From Bacillota bacterium (GTDB lineage: Bacteria; Bacillota; UBA4882; UBA10575), in the NCBI GenBank assembly GCA_012727895.1, contig JAAYGG010000035.1:1-32188 (forward strand): a stretch of 32,188 nucleotides of DNA. Reading direction: 5' to 3'. The position numbers and the translations under genes are program-made. Each line of letters opens with the position of its first letter. The first letter of the stretch is position 1. The notes below the pieces were generated by a model. It was not told the origin of the DNA and searched no databases. It saw only the letters and a program-made list of their open reading frames with translations. Shown here one piece after another: positions 5,593-25,133 of this stretch.

Positions 5593-6707
5593 TGAAGATG
5601 AAGACCAGTGCCAACCGCAACCCCATTCGTGTCTTGATCATTGACGACTCCGCCTTTATCCGCCAGTTTCTCACCGGTATTCTTAAAGAAACCGGCGATT
5701 TCCAGGTGATCAGCGCCGTCGGCGACCCCCTAAAAGCCATGGAAAACAACTTATACATGGAGGCCGATGTCATCACCCTGGATCTGGAGATGCCGCATAT
5801 GGACGGTTTGGAATTTCTCCGTCTCCTGATGCGGACCCAACCCAAGCCGGTTGTAATGATTAGCTCCTGGACCAAGGAGAACAGTGAAATCGCTCTAAAA
5901 GCCCTGACGCTGGGCGCCGTGGATTTTGTTACCAAACCCACCCTGGGGTTGCGGGAGGGAATGGATAAATTAAAAGCGGAGATCATCACGAAAATACGGG
6001 CAGCCGCCGCCGCCCGCATCCCGGTCCCGGCAGCGCCGGGACAAAACCCCGCCGGAGAAGGCCCTTCTCCCTCCCCTTCCCCCGATCCCGTCCAGCCGGA
6101 GGCCTACGAACTAAAGGATACAACCGACAAAATGATTGTGATCGGGGCTTCAACTGGCGGTACGGTCGCCTTGACAGAGATCTTTAAGAGCCTCAGCCCC
6201 AACATCCCCGGGTTAATCCTCGTCCAGCACCTGCCGGCGATGTTTACCACTTCCTTCGCCGCTTCCCTCGATAGAGCCGGCCGGATACGGGTGAAAGAAG
6301 CAACAAACGGCGACCGGATCCTGCCCGGCCACGCCCTGGTGGCCCCCGGCGGGAAAGACCTGCTGGTCAAGAGGAGTGGCGCCCAATACTATGTGAAGTT
6401 AACCCCGCCGGCTACGGGTTCAATCTATACCCCTTCCATTAACCGGACATTATCCTCAGTTGCCAAGGAAGCGGGGAAAAACGCCATGGGGGTTATTTTA
6501 ACCGGCATGGGCGACGACGGGGCCGAAGGCTTAAAAGCCCTCCGGGATCGCGAGGGCTATACGATTGCCCAGGACGAAAAAACCTCAGTCATCTACGGGA
6601 TGCCGCAAAAGGCCTGGGAGATCGGGGCGGCGGTTAAACAGGTTCCCTTGGGGAAAGTCGCCGAGGAGATTCATCGCTGGGCTGGACTCCGCAAAAAAGA
6701 AGAGTAG
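5592..6707 (+). CDS. cheB: Chemotaxis response regulator / protein-glutamate methylesterase CheB
   Basis: Removes receptor methyl groups (and may deamidate glutamines) when phosphorylated by CheA. The 371 residues show a receiver domain with the acidic pair D18-D19, phospho-acceptor D64 in TLDLEMPHMDG and a conserved Lys in FVTKPTLG. A Pro-rich linker of about 35 residues follows. The esterase domain has the catalytic Ser in VIGASTGGT, His in VQHLPAMFTTSF and Asp in LTGMGDDGAEG, so it looks active. ATG 5592 overlaps the cheR stop; a second in-frame ATG at 5598 has better spacing from AAGGA (5584-5588) and may be the true start. Last gene of the operon; only 15 nt separate it from the convergent HypB-like gene, and no clear terminator is visible. 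Confidence 0.95.
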   Translation: MKMKTSANRNPIRVLIIDDSAFIRQFLTGILKETGDFQVISAVGDPLKAMENNLYMEADVITLDLEMPHMDGLEFLRLLMRTQPKPVVMISSWTKENSEIALKALTLGAVDFVTKPTLGLREGMDKLKAEIITKIRAAAAARIPVPAAPGQNPAGEGPSPSPSPDPVQPEAYELKDTTDKMIVIGASTGGTVALTEIFKSLSPNIPGLILVQHLPAMFTTSFAASLDRAGRIRVKEATNGDRILPGHALVAPGGKDLLVKRSGAQYYVKLTPPATGSIYTPSINRTLSSVAKEAGKNAMGVILTGMGDDGAEGLKALRDREGYTIAQDEKTSVIYGMPQKAWEIGAAVKQVPLGKVAEEIHRWAGLRKKEE

Positions 6708-6722
6708 TACGGTTTCTCAATC

Positions 6723-7394
6723 CTAACCGCTCTCCTCAAAGAGGCTTTCACCGCAAAACCGCAAAAGCCAGTCCCGCCAGCGCCCCAACCCCACCCCGGT
6801 CCGGCAGGAAAGGGCCAACTCCTCTGCGTCCGGGTTGATCTGCCGGAGATAAGCCGTGAACCGCTGGTGGGAAAACCCGGAAAAAGGCAGGAGGTCAATC
6901 TTGTTTAAGAGGACAAGGTCCACCCCGGCGTAGGCCCGGGGAAATTTTGCCGGAGCCTCATCCCCTTCGGACACGCTATGGATCAGTACCCGGCACTCCT
7001 CACCATAGTCAAAATCAACGGGCGAGAACAATTCCCCCGGGTTTTCGATAAAAACCAGGCTGCCCGGGGAGAGCGGCAGTTGCCGCAGGGCGGCGCCGAC
7101 CTCGCCGGCCTTTAAATACCCTCCTTTCCGCCCCGTCCTGGCCGCACAGGCGGGAATCCCCACCGCCCGCAACCTTTCCAGATCCAGTTCCGCTGCGGCC
7201 GACCCTGCCACCGCCTGGATGAAAAGCCGGCCCTGCAAGATCTCGTGGGTCCTCCGGATTACTTCGGTCTTGCCCGCACCGCAGCTCCCGATGAGGTTAA
7301 AGAGGGTGACTTTCCGTGAGGCGAGAAAGAGTTTGTTCTCCATGGCCTGCTGCCGGTTGCTGGCGATTCTTTTCTCCCAAAACCCGGACCCCAT
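6723..7394 (-). CDS. HypB-like GTPase lacking the nickel-binding Cys-His pair
   Basis: A SIMIBI-class GTPase of the HypB (hydrogenase/urease nickel insertion) family. In the 223-residue product the P-loop GSCGAGKT is at about 36-43, followed by the HypB signature ENPGELFSPVDFDYGE, then SVSEGDEAPAKFP and the guanine-specificity motif LLNKIDLLPF. In HypB a Cys-His pair (TGGACHLDA) binds metal at the dimer interface. The matching segment here reads TGRKGGYLKA, with both ligands lost, and there is no N-terminal His-rich or CxxCGC motif. ATG 7394 is chosen over upstream codons because AAGGAGGT at 7401-7408 sits 6 nt away. No other hyp or hydrogenase gene is nearby, so a role in nickel insertion is doubtful; it may serve another metalloprotein or be a regulatory paralogue. 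Confidence 0.8.
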   Translation of the reverse strand: MGSGFWEKRIASNRQQAMENKLFLASRKVTLFNLIGSCGAGKTEVIRRTHEILQGRLFIQAVAGSAAAELDLERLRAVGIPACAARTGRKGGYLKAGEVGAALRQLPLSPGSLVFIENPGELFSPVDFDYGEECRVLIHSVSEGDEAPAKFPRAYAGVDLVLLNKIDLLPFSGFSHQRFTAYLRQINPDAEELALSCRTGVGLGRWRDWLLRFCGESLFEESG

Positions 7395-7506
7395 CCCGCC
7401 ACCTCCTTCACCCCATTTCTCTTTCCTTTCTTTATAATTATTACGCAAAATTGCCTTTTTTAGACATTACCGCCAAATTCCCTTTGGAATTGGTAAGGTT
7501 TTAAAT

Positions 7507-7541
7507 AAAAAAACGCTTATCCCAGGTCACTGGGTAAGCGT
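7507..7541 (-). terminator. Intrinsic terminator of the rpmE-yqhQ-prfA-prmC unit
   Basis: Read on the minus strand, ACGCTTACCCAG, a four-base loop and CTGGGATAAGCG form a stem of about 12 bp with one bulged base. A run of seven T follows at once (7513 down to 7507). It lies 70 nt past the prmC stop and is a convincing rho-independent terminator for that transcript. Confidence 0.85.
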
Positions 7542-7610
7542 CCTTCTATGCTGCTGTGCCGGCAAGCCACCGGCCCTCAACCGGCTGTGTATGGTTATGG
7601 CTTCATGGTT

Positions 7611-8504
7611 TCACCTGTTTTCCCTGGAAAGAACCGTCACCCGGGAGCGGCCGGCCAGGTCCTTATAGGTGCAAACATGGGAAAAGCCTTCTCTTCTTGC
7701 GATCTCTGCCACCAGCAGGTGTTGATCGTCCCCATGTTCCAGGGCAACAAAACCCCCCGGCGCCAAGTACTCGCCGGCCCGGCGCAAAATGGCTTTAATC
7801 ACCTCCAGGCCGTCCTCGCCCCCATCCAGGGCGACCCGCGGCTCCGCCTGGACCTCCTTGGGCAGGGCGGGCCAGGCATTACTGGGAATATAGGGGGGGT
7901 TGGAGACAATCCCGAGATATTTCTTCTCCGCCGGCAGGGCTGAGAAGAGATCCCCTATGTAGAAAGTGATCCTTTCTTCCATCCCGAGCGAACGGGCATT
8001 TTCCATTGCCACTGCCACCGCAGCCGGGGAGATATCGACCGCGTCGATCCGGCATTCCGGGAGATAATGGGCGAGGGCGACCGCCACCGCGCCGCTGCCG
8101 GTTCCCAGATCCAGGAGGTCGCATGCGCCCCGCTCTTTACCTGCGCAGGCGGACGCAGCCATCCGCTGGTTAACCGCTTCCACCGCCTTCTCCACCAGCA
8201 GTTCCGTTTCCGGCCTGGGAACAAGGACCTCCGGGGTTACTTTAAACTCCCACTTTAAAAAGGCCTTTTTTCCCGTGATGTAGGCCGTGGGCGTCCCCAT
8301 GAGCCGGAGGCGGATCACCTCCTTATACTTCCGGATCTCTTCCGGATCCAGCGGCCGGTCGGGCATTAGATAAAGGTGGAGCCGGTCGGTCCCGAGGACA
8401 TGGGCTAAAAGAACCTCGGCCTCCAGGCGGGCGGCCTCCAGGCCTTTATCTGTAAAAAAAGCGGCGGTTGCCGCAAGAACTCCCTTGATATCATTCATCT
8501 TCAT
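7611..8504 (-). CDS. prmC: Peptide chain release factor glutamine methyltransferase PrmC
   Basis: SAM-dependent enzyme that N5-methylates the glutamine of the GGQ motif in release factors. The 297-residue product has the SAM-binding LDLGTGSGAVAVALA and the catalytic NPPY in IVSNPPYIPSNAW, preceded by a helical N-terminal domain that contacts the substrate. ATG 8504 overlaps the stop of prfA, which encodes its substrate (TGATG), so the two are probably translationally coupled. A TTG one codon upstream and an ATG two codons downstream are less likely starts. It is the last gene before the terminator at 7507-7541. Confidence 0.95.
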   Translation of the reverse strand: MKMNDIKGVLAATAAFFTDKGLEAARLEAEVLLAHVLGTDRLHLYLMPDRPLDPEEIRKYKEVIRLRLMGTPTAYITGKKAFLKWEFKVTPEVLVPRPETELLVEKAVEAVNQRMAASACAGKERGACDLLDLGTGSGAVAVALAHYLPECRIDAVDISPAAVAVAMENARSLGMEERITFYIGDLFSALPAEKKYLGIVSNPPYIPSNAWPALPKEVQAEPRVALDGGEDGLEVIKAILRRAGEYLAPGGFVALEHGDDQHLLVAEIARREGFSHVCTYKDLAGRSRVTVLSRENR

Positions 8505-9583
8505 CAACCGCCCGTTCCGTCCGCTTGTTTCAGCTTTTCTGTCTGTTCCGAAAGGAGGAGGGTGGAGATGATCTCCTCCAGATCCCCGGCGATCACCGCA
8601 TCCAGGCGGTGCAAGGTTAAACCGACCCGGTGGTCGGTCACCCGGTTTTGCGGGAAATTATAAGTGCGGATTCTTTCACTCCGGTCGCCGCTTCTCACCA
8701 GGCTCCGGCGGGTCTTGGCCAGTTCCTCCTGTTGTTCCTGGCGCATCTGATCCAAAAGCCTGGCCCGCAGGACCTTCAGGGCTTTCTCCCTATTTTTTAA
8801 CTGCGATTTTTCGTCCTGGCAGGAGACGACGATCCCGGTGGGCAAATGGGTGATGCGCACCGCGGAATCGGTGGTATTCACGTGCTGTCCCCCATGGCCG
8901 GAAGCACGGAAAACATCAATCCGCAGGTCGTTGGGGTCCAGTTCCACATCGACTTCTTCCGCTTCCGGCAGGACAATAACGGAGGCGGCCGAGGTATGGA
9001 TCCGCCCGCCGGCTTCAGTCACCGGCACCCGCTGGACCCTGTGGACCCCGCTCTCAAATTTCAACCGGTTATAAGCGCCTTTTCCCTCCACCATGAAGAT
9101 GATCTCTTTAAAGCCCCCCAGTTCCGTGGGGTTGGCGTTTAAAATCTCAACCTTCCAACCCTGGGCCTCGGCGTACCGGGTGTACATCCGGAAGAGGTCC
9201 CCGGCAAAAAGAGCGGCCTCTTCCCCGCCGGTGCCTGCCCTGATCTCCACGATGACATTTTTCTCATCATCCGGATCCTTCGGGAGAAGCAGGAGTTTTA
9301 ACTCCTGCAACAACTCCCGTTCCTTCTTCTCCAGTTCAACCAGGTCTTTTTTGACCAGGGCCACCTCTTCTTCGGAGAGGGGCTCCTCCAGCAGGCCCCG
9401 GGCAACCTCCAAATCCGACTCTACCTGGCGGTATTTCTGGTAAACAGAAACAATACCGGCCAGGTCCGCATGGGCCTTGGCCAGTTTCTGCATTTCTTTG
9501 GGGTTGGCCACCACTTCCGGGTCAGCCAGTTTTCTCCCCAGTTCCTCGTATTTCTTGGTGATGGCATTCAGTTTCTCAAACAC
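8504..9583 (-). CDS. prfA: Peptide chain release factor 1 (RF1)
   Basis: Recognises UAA/UAG stop codons and triggers peptide release on the ribosome. The 359-residue product carries the GGQ catalytic motif in [17 protein letters not shown]. It also has the RF1-type codon-recognition tripeptide in [16 protein letters not shown] (PxT class, not the SPF of RF2) and the C-terminal [12 protein letters not shown] segment. GTG 9583 is chosen because it gives the usual family start [18 protein letters not shown] codons at 9586 and 9598 are alternatives, the latter with GGGAG upstream. The start overlaps the end of the DUF1385 gene by 8 nt. Confidence 0.95.
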
Positions 9584-10532
9584 CACTGTCAACCTCACTC
9601 ATTATTCTCCCGGCGGAAGCGCGCGGCCCTGCCCGTGAAAGAAGGGGTTGAACCTCCTTCTCCCTCTCCTGGTTCAATACTTCTTGCAGAGCCATGATTG
9701 CCACTTGCAATTGCTCTTCATCCGGCCGCCGGGTGGTAAGGCGTTGCAACAAGAGACCGGGCCAGCTTAGCCACTTCCAGAGAAAGAAAGATTGGTGCTT
9801 CCCGGCCAGCTTGATGATTTCATAGGAGATACCAGCTATTACCGGTAAAAGCAATATCCGCGAGAGAAAACGCATGGACAGCGTCTGTTCGCCCAGGAAC
9901 GAAAAGAGAATGGCACTGATGATTACGACAAAGAGCAAAAAACTCGTCCCGCACCTGGGATGAAGCGGCGATTTGGTCCGGGCGTTTTCCACCGTCAGTT
10001 CTTCGCCCGCTTCATAGGTATGGATCACCTGGTGTTCCGCACCGTGATAAGCAAATACCCGCTTAATATCTTTGACCATGGAAACGGCTAAGATATACCC
10101 CACCAGGATCAAGGCCCGTACCAGCCCCTCGCTGAGGTTCTTCCAGAAGAGCCCCGGAAGATACCCGGCGATTACCTGGCGGATAAACAAGGGCAGGGCG
10201 ATAAAGAGAAGGACCGTCATGCCCAAGGCCAAAATTATGGCCACGGCCATCTCCCGGGGGGTGATCTCCCCTTCGCCTTCCGCCTCCATCAATTGGTTGG
10301 CGGAAAACTCCAAGGCCTTCAGCCCCAGGATAAAAGCTTCCCCCAGGGCGACTATCCCCCGGATGAACGGCCGTTTCAATATGGGATGCTTCTCTGTATA
10401 GGGATTTAACTCCCGGCTTTGGAGCACAACATTCCCCGGCCCACGGCGGACAGCCACGGCATAATGATGCCGGCCGCGCATCATTACCCCTTCCAGGACG
10501 CCCTGGCCGCCGTATTGAAAATTATTGGGCAA
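9576..10532 (-). CDS. yqhQ: DUF1385 (YqhQ-like) membrane protein
   Basis: A polytopic membrane protein of the DUF1385/YqhQ family, often found beside prfA/prmC in Bacillota; its biochemical role is not established. The 318 residues begin with the conserved [14 protein letters not shown]. Hydrophobic segments lie at about 90-120, 135-155, 195-215 and 222-245, and the family hallmarks [15 protein letters not shown] and [10 protein letters not shown] surround His/Cys residues that could bind metal. The TTG start at 10532 follows GGGAAGGTGA. It lies 45 nt after rpmE and overlaps prfA, so co-transcription is very likely. Confidence 0.88.
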
Positions 10533-10577: not shown

Positions 10578-10799
10578 TCAAGCTTTCTTCTTTTTCTTCT
10601 CGGTTCCGCCATAACGTTTCTGGAATTTCTCAACCTGGCCTCCGGAATCGACAATCCGCTGTTTCCCGGTGAATAACGGGTGGCATTTGGAACAGATCTC
10701 TACCCGGATCTCTTTCTTGGTCGAGCCGGTAACAAAAGACTCCCCGCAGACACAAGTCACTTTCGCCTGGTAGTACTCGGGATGAATATCTTTTTTCAT
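10578..10799 (-). CDS. rpmE: 50S ribosomal protein L31, zinc-binding type
   Basis: Small protein of the large ribosomal subunit at the inter-subunit bridge. The 73 residues begin [11 protein letters not shown], the normal family start. They hold four cysteines (C16, C18, C36, C39: CVC and CSKC), so this is the zinc-ribbon form used in zinc-replete cells. The C terminus is a Lys run. An in-frame ATG two codons upstream lies too close to the AAAGGTGA site, so 10799 is preferred. First gene after the promoter at 10841-10869. Confidence 0.95.
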
Positions 10800-10840
10800 C
10801 TGCATCGATCACCTTTCTTACTGCACTTTTCAACTTTTCA

Positions 10841-10900: not shown

Positions 10901-12094
10901 TTACAGCCCGGCTTCTTTCCGCAAGATTTCAACCTTGTCCAGTCTCTCCCAAGGCAGATCCAGATCGCCCCGCCCGAAATGGCCGTAACTGGCCACTTTT
11001 TTATAGAGCGGCTGCCGCAGGTTCATATCCCTAATAATCGCCGCCGGCCGGAGGTCAAAGACTTCCATAATCAGTTTTTCCAGCCGTTCCGGAGCGATCC
11101 GTTCCGTACCAAAGGTCTCGACCATCACGGAAACCGGGCGGGCCACCCCGATGGCGTAAGCCACCTGGATTTCACAACGGCTGGCCAAACCGGCGGCAAC
11201 CACATTTTTCGCCACATACCGCGCGGCGTAAGCGCCGGAACGGTCGACTTTTGTGGGGTCTTTCCCGGAAAATGCGCCCCCGCCGTGCCGGGCGGCGCCG
11301 CCGTATGTATCAACGATTATTTTCCGCCCGGTCAAACCGGAATCCCCTTGCGGCCCGCCGGTGACAAACCGCCCGGTAGGATTCACATAATACTTGGTCT
11401 TTTCATCCAGGAGTTCCGCAGGGAGCGTCTTTTTGATCACCTCTTCCCGGATCTCCGCACGGAGGGTCGCCAGATCAACCTCCGGATGATGCTGGGCGGA
11501 AACCACCACCGCCTCCAGCCTTAAGGGGCGGCCGTTTTCATACTCCACTGTTACCTGGGACTTCCCATCCGGCCGCAAATAAGGGAGGATCCCCTTCTTC
11601 CTCACCTCCGCCAATTTACGGGTGAGTTGGTGGGCATAAAAAATCGGCGCCGGCATATATTCGGGGGTCTCGTCGGAAGCGTAGCCAAAAACCATCCCCT
11701 GGTCGCCTGCGCCCAAGCGGTCAAGGGGGTCCTTGCCTTCCCCGGTCTGGGTCTCCCACGAGCTGTTAACCCCCAGGGCAATATCGGGCGACTGCTCGTC
11801 AATGGTGGTCAAAACCGCACAGGTTTCAGAGTCAAACCCGTATTTGGCGCGGGTGTACCCGATCTCCCGCACGGTCTCCCGGGCAATACGGGGGATGTCC
11901 ACATAACAATCGGTGGTGATCTCACCCATCACCAGGATCAACCCGGTGGTAACAGCAGTCTCACAAGCTACCCTGGCATTAGGGTCTTTGCTGAGAATAT
12001 CATCGAGAATCGCATCGGAGATCTGGTCGCAGATCTTGTCGGGATGGCCCTCGGTCACCGATTCCGAGGTAAAAAGTTGACGTACGGATCCCAT
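10901..12094 (-). CDS. metK: S-adenosylmethionine synthetase MetK
   Basis: Makes S-adenosylmethionine from ATP and methionine in the cytoplasm, supplying the methyl donor for CheR and PrmC among others. The 397 residues match the family over full length: [20 protein letters not shown] at the N terminus (His of the ATP site), [18 protein letters not shown], the P-loop-like [19 protein letters not shown] and a C-terminal [14 protein letters not shown] 12094 is preceded by AAAGGAGG. It appears to be a single-gene unit with its own consensus promoter at 12187-12215. Confidence 0.97.
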
Positions 12095-23157: not shown

Positions 23158-24978
23158 TCAGCGGTCGAAATAAGCGGTGATAAAGACGGCCGGCGAATTC
23201 CAGTAGGTTGTCACCTCATTGGTGGACCAGCTCCCCTCGTGATCAATGTAAGCCCGGGCAGGCGGGTCGTTCCTCCGCAAATATTTCTGGGCCGTCGGGT
23301 CCTGAAGCCTGCTGTTGGGCCCTCCCGCCACCATCCCGGGTACCGGCGCTTTAATATTGTCTGCGCCGGACGGCCGGTGGTGCGGGTTCATCACCGGGTT
23401 GCCGCCAAAACCTGTAACATAGCATTTTCCCAGGACATTACGGCCGAAAAGGTAGTGGAGGTGGTCCTGAGCCGCCCGGATATACTCCTCCTCCTCCGGG
23501 GACAGGAGATGGGCAATGATCAGGATCATCGCCCGTCGCATCACCAGGCCGTTGCTGCCCCAGTAATACTCATTACCGGTCAGGGAAAGCCCGTAACCAT
23601 CGTTGGCGGCCCGGGAGGCCAGTATACGGGCGTGGCTGAGCAATTTCCCCCGTAAAAACTTGGCGATCCTCTGGTCTTGTCTTCCCTCATCCATAAAGAG
23701 ATAGGAGACAGTGCCAAACCCGCCCACGCTCTGCCAGCCCAAGGCGGTCAGGTCAATATTCGCCCGGTGCGTGCGGAGAACATAATTATGATATAACTCC
23801 TTGCCGGTTACCCGGTACAACTCCACCGCAGCCCAAAACCGCTCGTCCTGGTTGTTCCAGTCCCCGTATTCCCCGGTCTCCATCCCGGGCGGGTTTTTGT
23901 AATTAGGCGCATCAGGGTTCTTCTCCAACCACTGCCAGGCCTTCTCCGCCGCGGCCAGCGCCCTGCCGGCGAACTCCGGATCAATACCGGAATAGATCCG
24001 GGAAGCGGCGGCCATAATCGCAGCAAACCCACTAGTGGCCGTGGGCGAAACCTCTGTAATATAACGGGGTTCCCGGTCCGCTTCCGGCATAATGAAACCG
24101 GGAAACCGCCTGGTTGATACCTTATGGTAGACCCCGCCGGTCGCCGGGTCCTGCATCTTCAAGAGCCAGTCCAAAGCATAACTGCACTCATCCAGGAGAT
24201 CGGGGATCCCGTTCCCGCTCTCCGGGATCTGTAAAGAATCGCAAAAAGCCTCGGGGAACAACTCATAGGCCAGCAAGAGATCGGCCAGGGTCACCACTGC
24301 CGGCACGGTATACTTCCCGAAATCGCCCGCATCATGCCAGCCGCCGGTTGTATCCTTATGTTTCTTCCGGTCGGTAAAGAAAAAGGCGTCTTCCAAATGG
24401 CAGGCTCCATGTCTCCAAACCCCGGCATATTCAGGTTCCAGGGCAATACCGCACCGTTGGTAGTAGAGCATCTTCAAAAGGGCCTTTTTTGCCTCGCGGT
24501 AGACCCCGGGGTCAATACGGAAAGGATAGGATCTGCCCACGCCGGGAAGGTAGAGAAAATAGTGGCCGGCCTCCGTCACCTGGGAAAAATCGGCGTAATA
24601 AATCCGGGCCCCGGAAGACCCGTCATCTACCGGTTTTTCCGTGGTTGTGCCGGTAAAGACCACTTCTTGTTCATCCTCTGAACCAACCCGGATAAGAAGA
24701 AACTCACCGCCGTGCCCGTCGATAACCGCCACCTTCCGGTCTTGCGGCCGGTAACCCAATTGATTGATCTGAATCCGCTCGCTGGATCTTTCATCAACAA
24801 TCGCCTTCATCGTCTCTTCACTCCATTCAACGCCTGCGTACATGCGACTACCAGTTGCCGTAATTTTGCTTCCCATCCCTGTCGCGACTCTTTGCCGCCT
24901 GCCGGGAAGAAACTCATGCCCGTTGAGAACGGCGAAAAAAAGAAAGGATGCCAGCAAAATCCTGCCTGCCTTTTTCAT
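23158..24978 (-). CDS. Secreted glycoside hydrolase family 9 (cellulase-type)
   Basis: Probable endoglucanase or related beta-glucanase exported from the cell. The 606-residue product starts with a signal peptide (MKKAGRILLASFLFFAVLNG). An N-terminal Ig-like CelD-type domain follows at about 65-155 (ERIQINQLGYRPQDRKVAVI), then the (alpha/alpha)6 catalytic domain. The GH9 catalytic Asp pair is D216 and D219 in GGWHDAGDFGKY. The His motif NPHHRPSG and the acid Glu in WSTNEVTTYWN near the C terminus are present, so it looks active. No dockerin, cellulose-binding module or anchor is seen. The frame is open further upstream, but ATG 24978 has AAAGGGGGC before it and gives the signal peptide. No partner glycosidase genes are nearby. 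Confidence 0.92.
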   Translation of the reverse strand: MKKAGRILLASFLFFAVLNGHEFLPGRRQRVATGMGSKITATGSRMYAGVEWSEETMKAIVDERSSERIQINQLGYRPQDRKVAVIDGHGGEFLLIRVGSEDEQEVVFTGTTTEKPVDDGSSGARIYYADFSQVTEAGHYFLYLPGVGRSYPFRIDPGVYREAKKALLKMLYYQRCGIALEPEYAGVWRHGACHLEDAFFFTDRKKHKDTTGGWHDAGDFGKYTVPAVVTLADLLLAYELFPEAFCDSLQIPESGNGIPDLLDECSYALDWLLKMQDPATGGVYHKVSTRRFPGFIMPEADREPRYITEVSPTATSGFAAIMAAASRIYSGIDPEFAGRALAAAEKAWQWLEKNPDAPNYKNPPGMETGEYGDWNNQDERFWAAVELYRVTGKELYHNYVLRTHRANIDLTALGWQSVGGFGTVSYLFMDEGRQDQRIAKFLRGKLLSHARILASRAANDGYGLSLTGNEYYWGSNGLVMRRAMILIIAHLLSPEEEEYIRAAQDHLHYLFGRNVLGKCYVTGFGGNPVMNPHHRPSGADNIKAPVPGMVAGGPNSRLQDPTAQKYLRRNDPPARAYIDHEGSWSTNEVTTYWNSPAVFITAYFDR

Positions 24979-25133
24979 GAAAATGCCCCCTTTTGAAAGG
25001 TCTCCCTGTACCAAATGCCCCGTGTTCCCAATCTGTATTCGCCAATATCTTCCGTATCTCCTACCCATAAAGGAATTTCCGGTTTCCTGTCGAAGAGACC
25101 CGTAGAGTTCTCCGGGTGGAAAGGGGGATCCAT

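Follow-up and report, generated by a model that had tools for sequence, protein, structure and literature searches.

The window, a stretch of 32,188 nucleotides, carries on its minus strand a gene for a GTPase that resembles the hydrogenase nickel protein HypB and in which the metal-binding residues are replaced. A preliminary description, made from the sequence, had read it as a stand-alone HypB paralogue with a changed metal or client, or as a degenerate copy. The locus raises the question of where such a protein came from and what it can still do, and it touches on metal-GTP coupling in HypB, which in our view is a standing question of the field.

The gene product and its lost metal site

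The features of the gene are:
7401..7408, minus strand, Shine-Dalgarno AAGGAGGT of the metal-less hypB (GAAGGAGG is kept in both genus-mates)
6723..7394, minus strand, metal-less HypB-derived GTPase, 223 aa (open reading frame, TIGR00073, PF02492)
7266..7289, minus strand, P-loop GSCGAGKT, residues 36-43 (sequence and alignment)
7242..7256, minus strand, helix signature RRTHE, residues 47-51, with His50 specific to the metal-less clade (sequence and alignment)
7200..7202, minus strand, Ser65 replacing the invariant switch-I Asp of EGD, A. fulgidus D66 (alignment)
7182..7184, minus strand, Asp71, equivalent to A. fulgidus D72 of the dimer salt bridge, kept (alignment)
7116..7121, minus strand, Gly92-Tyr93 replacing the metal-binding Cys-His (alignment)
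7023..7025, minus strand, Ser124 replacing the third metal ligand Cys, canonical LVCP (alignment)
6945..6947, minus strand, Lys150, equivalent to A. fulgidus K148 of the dimer salt bridge, kept (alignment)
6894..6905, minus strand, G4 motif NKID, residues 164-167 (sequence)

The start is the ATG at 7394, supported by the Shine-Dalgarno sequence six bases upstream. The product scores 152 bits against the hypB family TIGR00073 (cut-off 121.2) and 28.4 bits against the nucleotide-binding domain PF02492 (cut-off 20.7). The HypB-type ENxGxLxxPxxFDxGE and SEGDE segments of the preliminary description are indeed kept, as ENPGELFSPVDFDYGE and SVSEGDE, and the P-loop, ExxG and NKxD (NKID) that mark a SIMIBI G domain are all present.

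The gene was found in all 17 genomes of the order sample (16 of family f1 and one of f2) and in none of the 12 other class genomes, eight of which have canonical HypBs. Its frame is open in 16 of the 17 genomes; in G009 the copy lies in two pieces, each running to a contig end, and this break is probably an assembly artefact. Just four of the 17 genes, the window's among them, pass the curated TIGR00073 cut-off, and PF02492 was matched at E 0.001 or better in 14 of the 16 proteins. No further member was found in a sample of 398 genomes of the phylum that includes 11 of the 17, with seven candidates scored per genome. Scores there fall from 245.9 bits (186.2 and 117 for the G009 pieces) to 162.6 bits, and all 17 loci checked below this drop (L187-L203) have the canonical Cys-His. 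A single-protein query found no close relatives among genome contigs. A 16-row profile recovered 581 relatives, and among the best 80 loci of these there was no member of the metal-less clade, 79 having Cys-His...Cys and one (L142) having Ser for His.

Residues were counted in the 16 metal-less proteins, the G009 copy being excluded because it is cut by two contig ends, and in 124 distinct canonical HypBs. The latter are those scoring above 230 bits to the in-phylum HypB model together with L187-L203, a set that excludes by construction divergent HypBs such as L034 and L055. The L055 protein (L055:6638-7309, genome G050; TIGR00073 165 bits) keeps Cys-Cys-His and reads ENMGNITSP at the third ligand position, where the Cys of LVCP is missing.

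The replacement of Cys-His had been noted before, and it extends to the whole order. Canonical CHL (GCHL) reads GYL (GGYL) at residues 92-94 of the window protein; Cys92 is present in all 124 canonical proteins and in none of the 16 metal-less ones, and His93 in 123 of the 124 (L142 has Ser) and in one of the 16 (L044, with no adjacent Cys). The loss of the third ligand, here Ser124, is a point that the preliminary description did not contain, and Cys124 is again found in 0/16 metal-less and 124/124 canonical proteins. The protein ligands of M. jannaschii HypB are given as Cys95, His96 and Cys127 in the accessible part of the source (PMC7055735), so that with Cys-His changed to Gly-Tyr and the third Cys to Ser all three are missing. 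The metal-less proteins thus do not have the CHxnC metal site at the dimer interface that is required of a HypB, and for this reason we class them as HypB-derived and not as HypB. As a stand-alone HypB-derived GTPase without nickel ligands the protein had been correctly described.

The invariant switch-I Asp, also expected of a HypB, was found in none of the 16 metal-less and in all 124 canonical proteins. In A. fulgidus HypB this residue, Asp-66, sits in the gamma-phosphate pocket of the apo form (PMC3262836, accessible in part). The earlier statement that all GTPase motifs are kept is thus right for the P-loop and NKID and wrong for this position, and the loss of the Asp could impair the GTP cycle.

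The Asp/Lys pair used for HypB dimerisation is present, with D71 in 16/16 and Lys150 in 15/16 of the metal-less proteins. According to the accessible text of PMC3262836, the Asp-72/Lys-148 intermolecular salt bridge of A. fulgidus HypB forms on GTP binding, and the K148A change abolished GTP-dependent dimerisation and did not significantly affect nucleotide binding. Also retained are the P-loop G-x-GKT, E117 and the NKxD Asp (D167), each in 16/16, and the ExxG Gly and the NKxD Lys (K165), each in 15/16. The protein of genome G016 (L054) deviates, with NHLD for NKxD, a gap at the ExxG Gly and Arg for Lys150. By our own count the second residue of the E. coli dimer patch, L246 in the part of PMC7055735 available, aligns with Ser172.

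Some residues have become fixed instead. His50 is present in 16/16 metal-less and 0/124 canonical proteins. Arg47 is present in 16/16 against 4/124 and also occurs in three of the five HypBs of the sister family f5, so that of this helix His50 alone is clearly new. Cys197 is likewise invariant in the 16 proteins and found in 42 of the 124 canonical HypBs, and these two are the sole Cys or His residues invariant across the metal-less set. The 16 proteins diverge most in the former metal loop (residues 81-111), where their mean pairwise identity is 0.22; over the P-loop and first helix it is 0.74. Among the proteins of the window's genus the loop has an identity of 0.87 and evolves no faster than the rest.

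That the gene is a functionless relic in decay, the degenerate copy of the preliminary description, is very unlikely. Such a relic would account for the loss of function-defining residues, for the N-terminal HypB helix positions, filled in four of the 16 proteins and empty in 12, and for the two pieces of the G009 copy at contig ends. Set against this are the open frames elsewhere, the probable assembly origin of the G009 break, the newly fixed residues and the low dN/dS. Pairwise dN/dS of the gene within the window's genus is 0.22, 0.22 and 0.16, and that of its neighbours is 0.18-0.21 (prmC), 0.17 (DUF1385), 0.19 (cheB) and 0.20 (cheR). In genus g2 it is 0.083-0.136 for 11 of 28 pairs (dS below 1.1), the other 17 pairs being near or past saturation. 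Purifying selection equal to that on neighbouring genes makes decay unlikely, and the pattern of residues and selection together fits a changed function better.

Hydrogenase and nickel partners

The host genome (2.3 Mb, 97% complete) has the window gene as its sole TIGR00073 match above the cut-off, and no second, canonical hypB accompanies it. HypA, HypD and the [NiFe] large subunit had no match there at E 0.001, so the HypA partner and the [NiFe] client that go with a HypB are both missing from the genome as searched. The preliminary description had named one case that would tell against it, that of the sole hypB in a genome with a functional [NiFe]-hydrogenase; with no large subunit matched, this is not the case here. 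Ni-CODH and HypF each gave one short match below the cut-off (30.7 and 37.9 bits, respectively). Across the 17 genomes of the order no Ni-CODH (TIGR01702) was found above the cut-off, and 15 have short matches below it. The three other PF02492 matches of the host genome were read by us from their sequences as Ffh, Der and an unrelated protein, and neither UreG nor CobW was seen among them. A separate G3E-type family of 235-239 aa occurs at L042:6295-7014, L057, L058, L059, L060, L065 and L067, with the motifs AGPPSAGKT-like and SGDLCPDHA; the L042 protein, the one scanned, reaches 71 bits to TIGR00073, below the cut-off.

HypD, HypF and the [NiFe] large subunit are above the cut-off in one of the 17 genomes (G009). 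HypA is above it in four (G008, G009, G011 and G012), with weak matches below it in three more, and the same four genomes have a canonical HypB alongside the metal-less gene. In G008, G011 and G012 the canonical hypB and a hypA-like gene lie beside a gene for an oxidoreductase of 895-936 aa (L211:4067-8008, L212:4202-8041 and L213:6308-10118, respectively), and the same arrangement occurs in G060 (L215:7028-11797). FAD and 4Fe-4S domains were found in the L211 and L215 oxidoreductases, the two that were scanned. A profile search found neither HypD nor a [NiFe] subunit in G008, G011 and G012. These loci resemble the gene surroundings of IsrA, a putative isoprene reductase, as described in the accessible part of PMC10134865.

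The [FeFe]-hydrogenase domain PF02906 is above the cut-off in all 17 genomes, the host included. As matches to HypD and the [NiFe] large subunit occur in just one, recruitment of the GTPase to [FeFe]-hydrogenase assembly comes to mind. We regard this as highly improbable: [FeFe] enzymes have a GTPase of their own, HydF (PMC5431965, accessible in part), and the metal-less gene is absent from the eight stretches examined around [FeFe] genes. Reading these eight stretches by eye, we recognised no HydF, an observation of little weight.

Genomic slot and origin

Upstream of the metal-less gene the window contains:
7503..7542, minus strand, intrinsic-terminator-like hairpin with T tract between prmC and the metal-less gene (folding, -17.7 kcal/mol)
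7611..8507, minus strand, prmC, release factor glutamine methyltransferase (profile search)
8504..9598, minus strand, prfA, peptide chain release factor 1 (profile search)
9576..10532, minus strand, DUF1385 protein (profile search)
10578..10805, minus strand, rpmE-like gene (76.6% to the L207 reference; named by reading, no profile)
10901..12094, minus strand, metK (profile search)

Farther along, at 23158-25068 and only a few genes away from nusA, infB and truB, lies a gene whose product belongs to glycosyl hydrolase family 9 and has a cellulase N-terminal domain.

A complete hypABFCDE lies directly after rpmE-DUF1385-prfA-prmC in four of the 12 other class genomes (G020, G021, G022 and G025), with every hypB above the TIGR00073 cut-off; we named hypA, C, D, E, F and rpmE from gene order, length and our reading of the L207 reference proteins. 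G024 has hypA in this slot, at a contig end; in five genomes of f5 and f3 (G017, G019, G023, G026 and G027) the slot is free of hyp genes, and the contigs of G018 and G028 stop before it. Occupancy of the slot by hyp genes is not universal in the class.

In the order the metal-less gene stands on the same strand after prmC or, in four of the 17 genomes (G006, G007, G014 and G016; loci L043, L044, L051 and L054), after prmC-trkH-trkA, in a reading of gene order that includes contigs beginning or ending inside the prmC block. The f3 genome G017 has prmC-trkH-trkA without the metal-less gene. A trkH-like fragment in G012 (L049:5848-6063) suggests a later loss of trkH-trkA elsewhere. A cation diffusion facilitator gene is convergent to the metal-less gene in 12 of the 17 genomes (L039, L040 and L043-L052), coming after a YgjP-like gene at L044, and none stands beside it in the window's genus.

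The hairpin at 7503-7542 was missed by the built-in terminator scan and revealed by folding. The hairpin upstream of the gene is stronger than 40 of 40 shuffles in 10 of the 17 loci; in the other seven 1, 2, 3, 3, 3, 7 and 25 of the 40 shuffles were equally strong. A promoter scan of 6500-7900 found no sigma-70 type promoter. In the window's genus the gene is probably transcribed as a separate unit, and its position then says little about its client. A joint role with the neighbouring prfA and prmC in terminating translation we hold to be very improbable. Wherever the upstream side was seen, the gene is on the same strand and next to prmC, or to trkA after prmC, as such a role would predict. 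However, the slot is common to the f5 hyp operon, the hairpin splits off the upstream gene in 10 of the 17 loci (it is not clear in seven), and trkH-trkA intervene in four.

In a tree of 81 rows the 16 metal-less proteins form one clade (SH-aLRT 99) that joins nine HypBs of the class (97), with the warning that long branches meet inside the metal-less clade. A more careful tree of 64 rows omitted 17: the long L054, L034 and L033, three g2 rows, nine close copies, L085 and L027. Its 12 metal-less rows form one clade (100/100), which joins five f5 HypBs (G020, G021, G022, G025 and one of G028) at 96/77, a branch that was not starred and at which the metal-less branches are long. Four of these five are in the slot; the G028 HypB is on contig C416, where neither prmC nor the slot was seen. 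AU tests, for which the groups were defined once the first tree was known, rejected a clade of the metal-less proteins with the canonical HypBs of G008, G011 and G012 (p 0.00019) and one with the canonical HypB of G009 (p 0.000054).

The shared slot, the tree and these rejections are explained most simply if the metal-less gene is the lineage's own hypB, left over from a hyp operon that was lost, and if the canonical copies within the order came from elsewhere. The earlier word "paralogue" does not hold, the gene being a positional and, by the tree, probable orthologue of the hypB of that operon. Likely orthologues with an intact Cys-His in a hyp operon, which the preliminary description had said would count against it, do exist in f5; they remove that word and leave the order-wide loss of the ligands in place. 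Duplication of a canonical HypB still found in some relatives would fit the four of 17 genomes that carry both genes. It is nevertheless extremely improbable, since grouping with either type of canonical HypB is rejected by the AU test and the canonical genes branch elsewhere and adjoin the FAD/4Fe-4S oxidoreductase or sit in a separate hyp/hydrogenase cluster.

Proposed function and relation to known systems

We consider it probable that the gene was once the native hypB of a hypABFCDE operon, outlasted the rest of that operon and now serves a new client as a metal-free GTP dimer switch. The lineage would have given up its [NiFe]-hydrogenase and kept the GTPase alone at the old slot downstream of prfA-prmC; the metal site (Cys-His...Cys) and the switch-I Asp would have been lost, and the gene recruited to another job. 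GTP may bind at the intact P-loop and NKxD pocket and drive formation of a homodimer by way of the intermolecular salt bridge between Asp71 and Lys150, both of which are retained. The resulting dimer/monomer cycle between GTP and GDP would control a protein partner and not a nickel ion, and contact might be made through the RR-x-HE face that helix 1 presents, which includes the newly fixed His50. More tentatively, and with somewhat less than even confidence, we suggest that across the order this selected HypB descendant acts on a new protein client with metal-uncoupled GTP-dependent dimerisation as its output.

Of the changed metal or client proposed earlier, a changed client is thus the best, though presumptive, reading. 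A changed metal, with the protein still a metallochaperone whose new metal site elsewhere serves another metal enzyme, we judge unlikely. HypB and UreG, its nearest relatives of known structure, handle nickel, the newly fixed His50 and the invariant Cys197 might be ligands of such a site, and a cation diffusion facilitator gene is convergent in most of the order (12/17). However, His50 and Cys197 are the sole invariant candidates and Cys197 is shared with 42 of the 124 canonical HypBs; the transporter is encoded on the other strand, and the window's genus has none next to the metal-less gene.

If the metal-free dimer switch is real, the G-protein switch and the metal cargo of such chaperones would be separable in nature. 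Since the metal site and the switch-I Asp are removed and the rest is under selection, the sister families provide metal-coupled and metal-free versions of one gene that can be compared. There is also a warning for annotation, as the window protein passes the curated HypB cut-off and would be labelled a nickel protein of hydrogenases although its genome yielded no [NiFe]-hydrogenase; automatic annotation would give all four passing genes of the order the name of nickel incorporation proteins. In the literature accessible to us, mostly without subscription papers, we found no description of a HypB without metal ligands or of a hypB beside prmC or prfA.

An AlphaFold2 model of the window protein (mean pLDDT 90.6) has as its best PDB matches the HypB entries 2hf8, 2wsm and 4lps, followed by UreG. 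The model supports a HypB fold and not a function, and its alignment of 41 canonical HypBs pulls it towards HypB. The HypBs of M. jannaschii (2hf8/2hf9), A. fulgidus (2wsm) and H. pylori (4lps) share this fold with Foldseek E values of 3.5e-21 to 5.4e-17. They also share the P-loop, NKxD, the EGD-x-KxP segment and the D72/K148 pair, and the genomic slot is that of the f5 hypB. Unlike them, the metal-less protein has neither the CHxnC ligands nor the switch-I Asp and has His50 newly fixed, and neither HypA, HypD nor a [NiFe] client was found in its host genome. UreG (4hi0, 5xkt) is a related G3E metallochaperone GTPase with a TM-score of 0.68-0.70 to the model, but its identity is 20% and there is no UreG among the PF02492 matches of the host genome. 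The metal motif of UreG differs from that of HypB. The mutase chaperones MeaB and MMAA are remote matches (query TM-score 0.44-0.59) and, in the accessible parts of PMC10481361 and PMC9974510, they provide a precedent in which a G-protein acts as the gate for a cofactor step in its partner protein.
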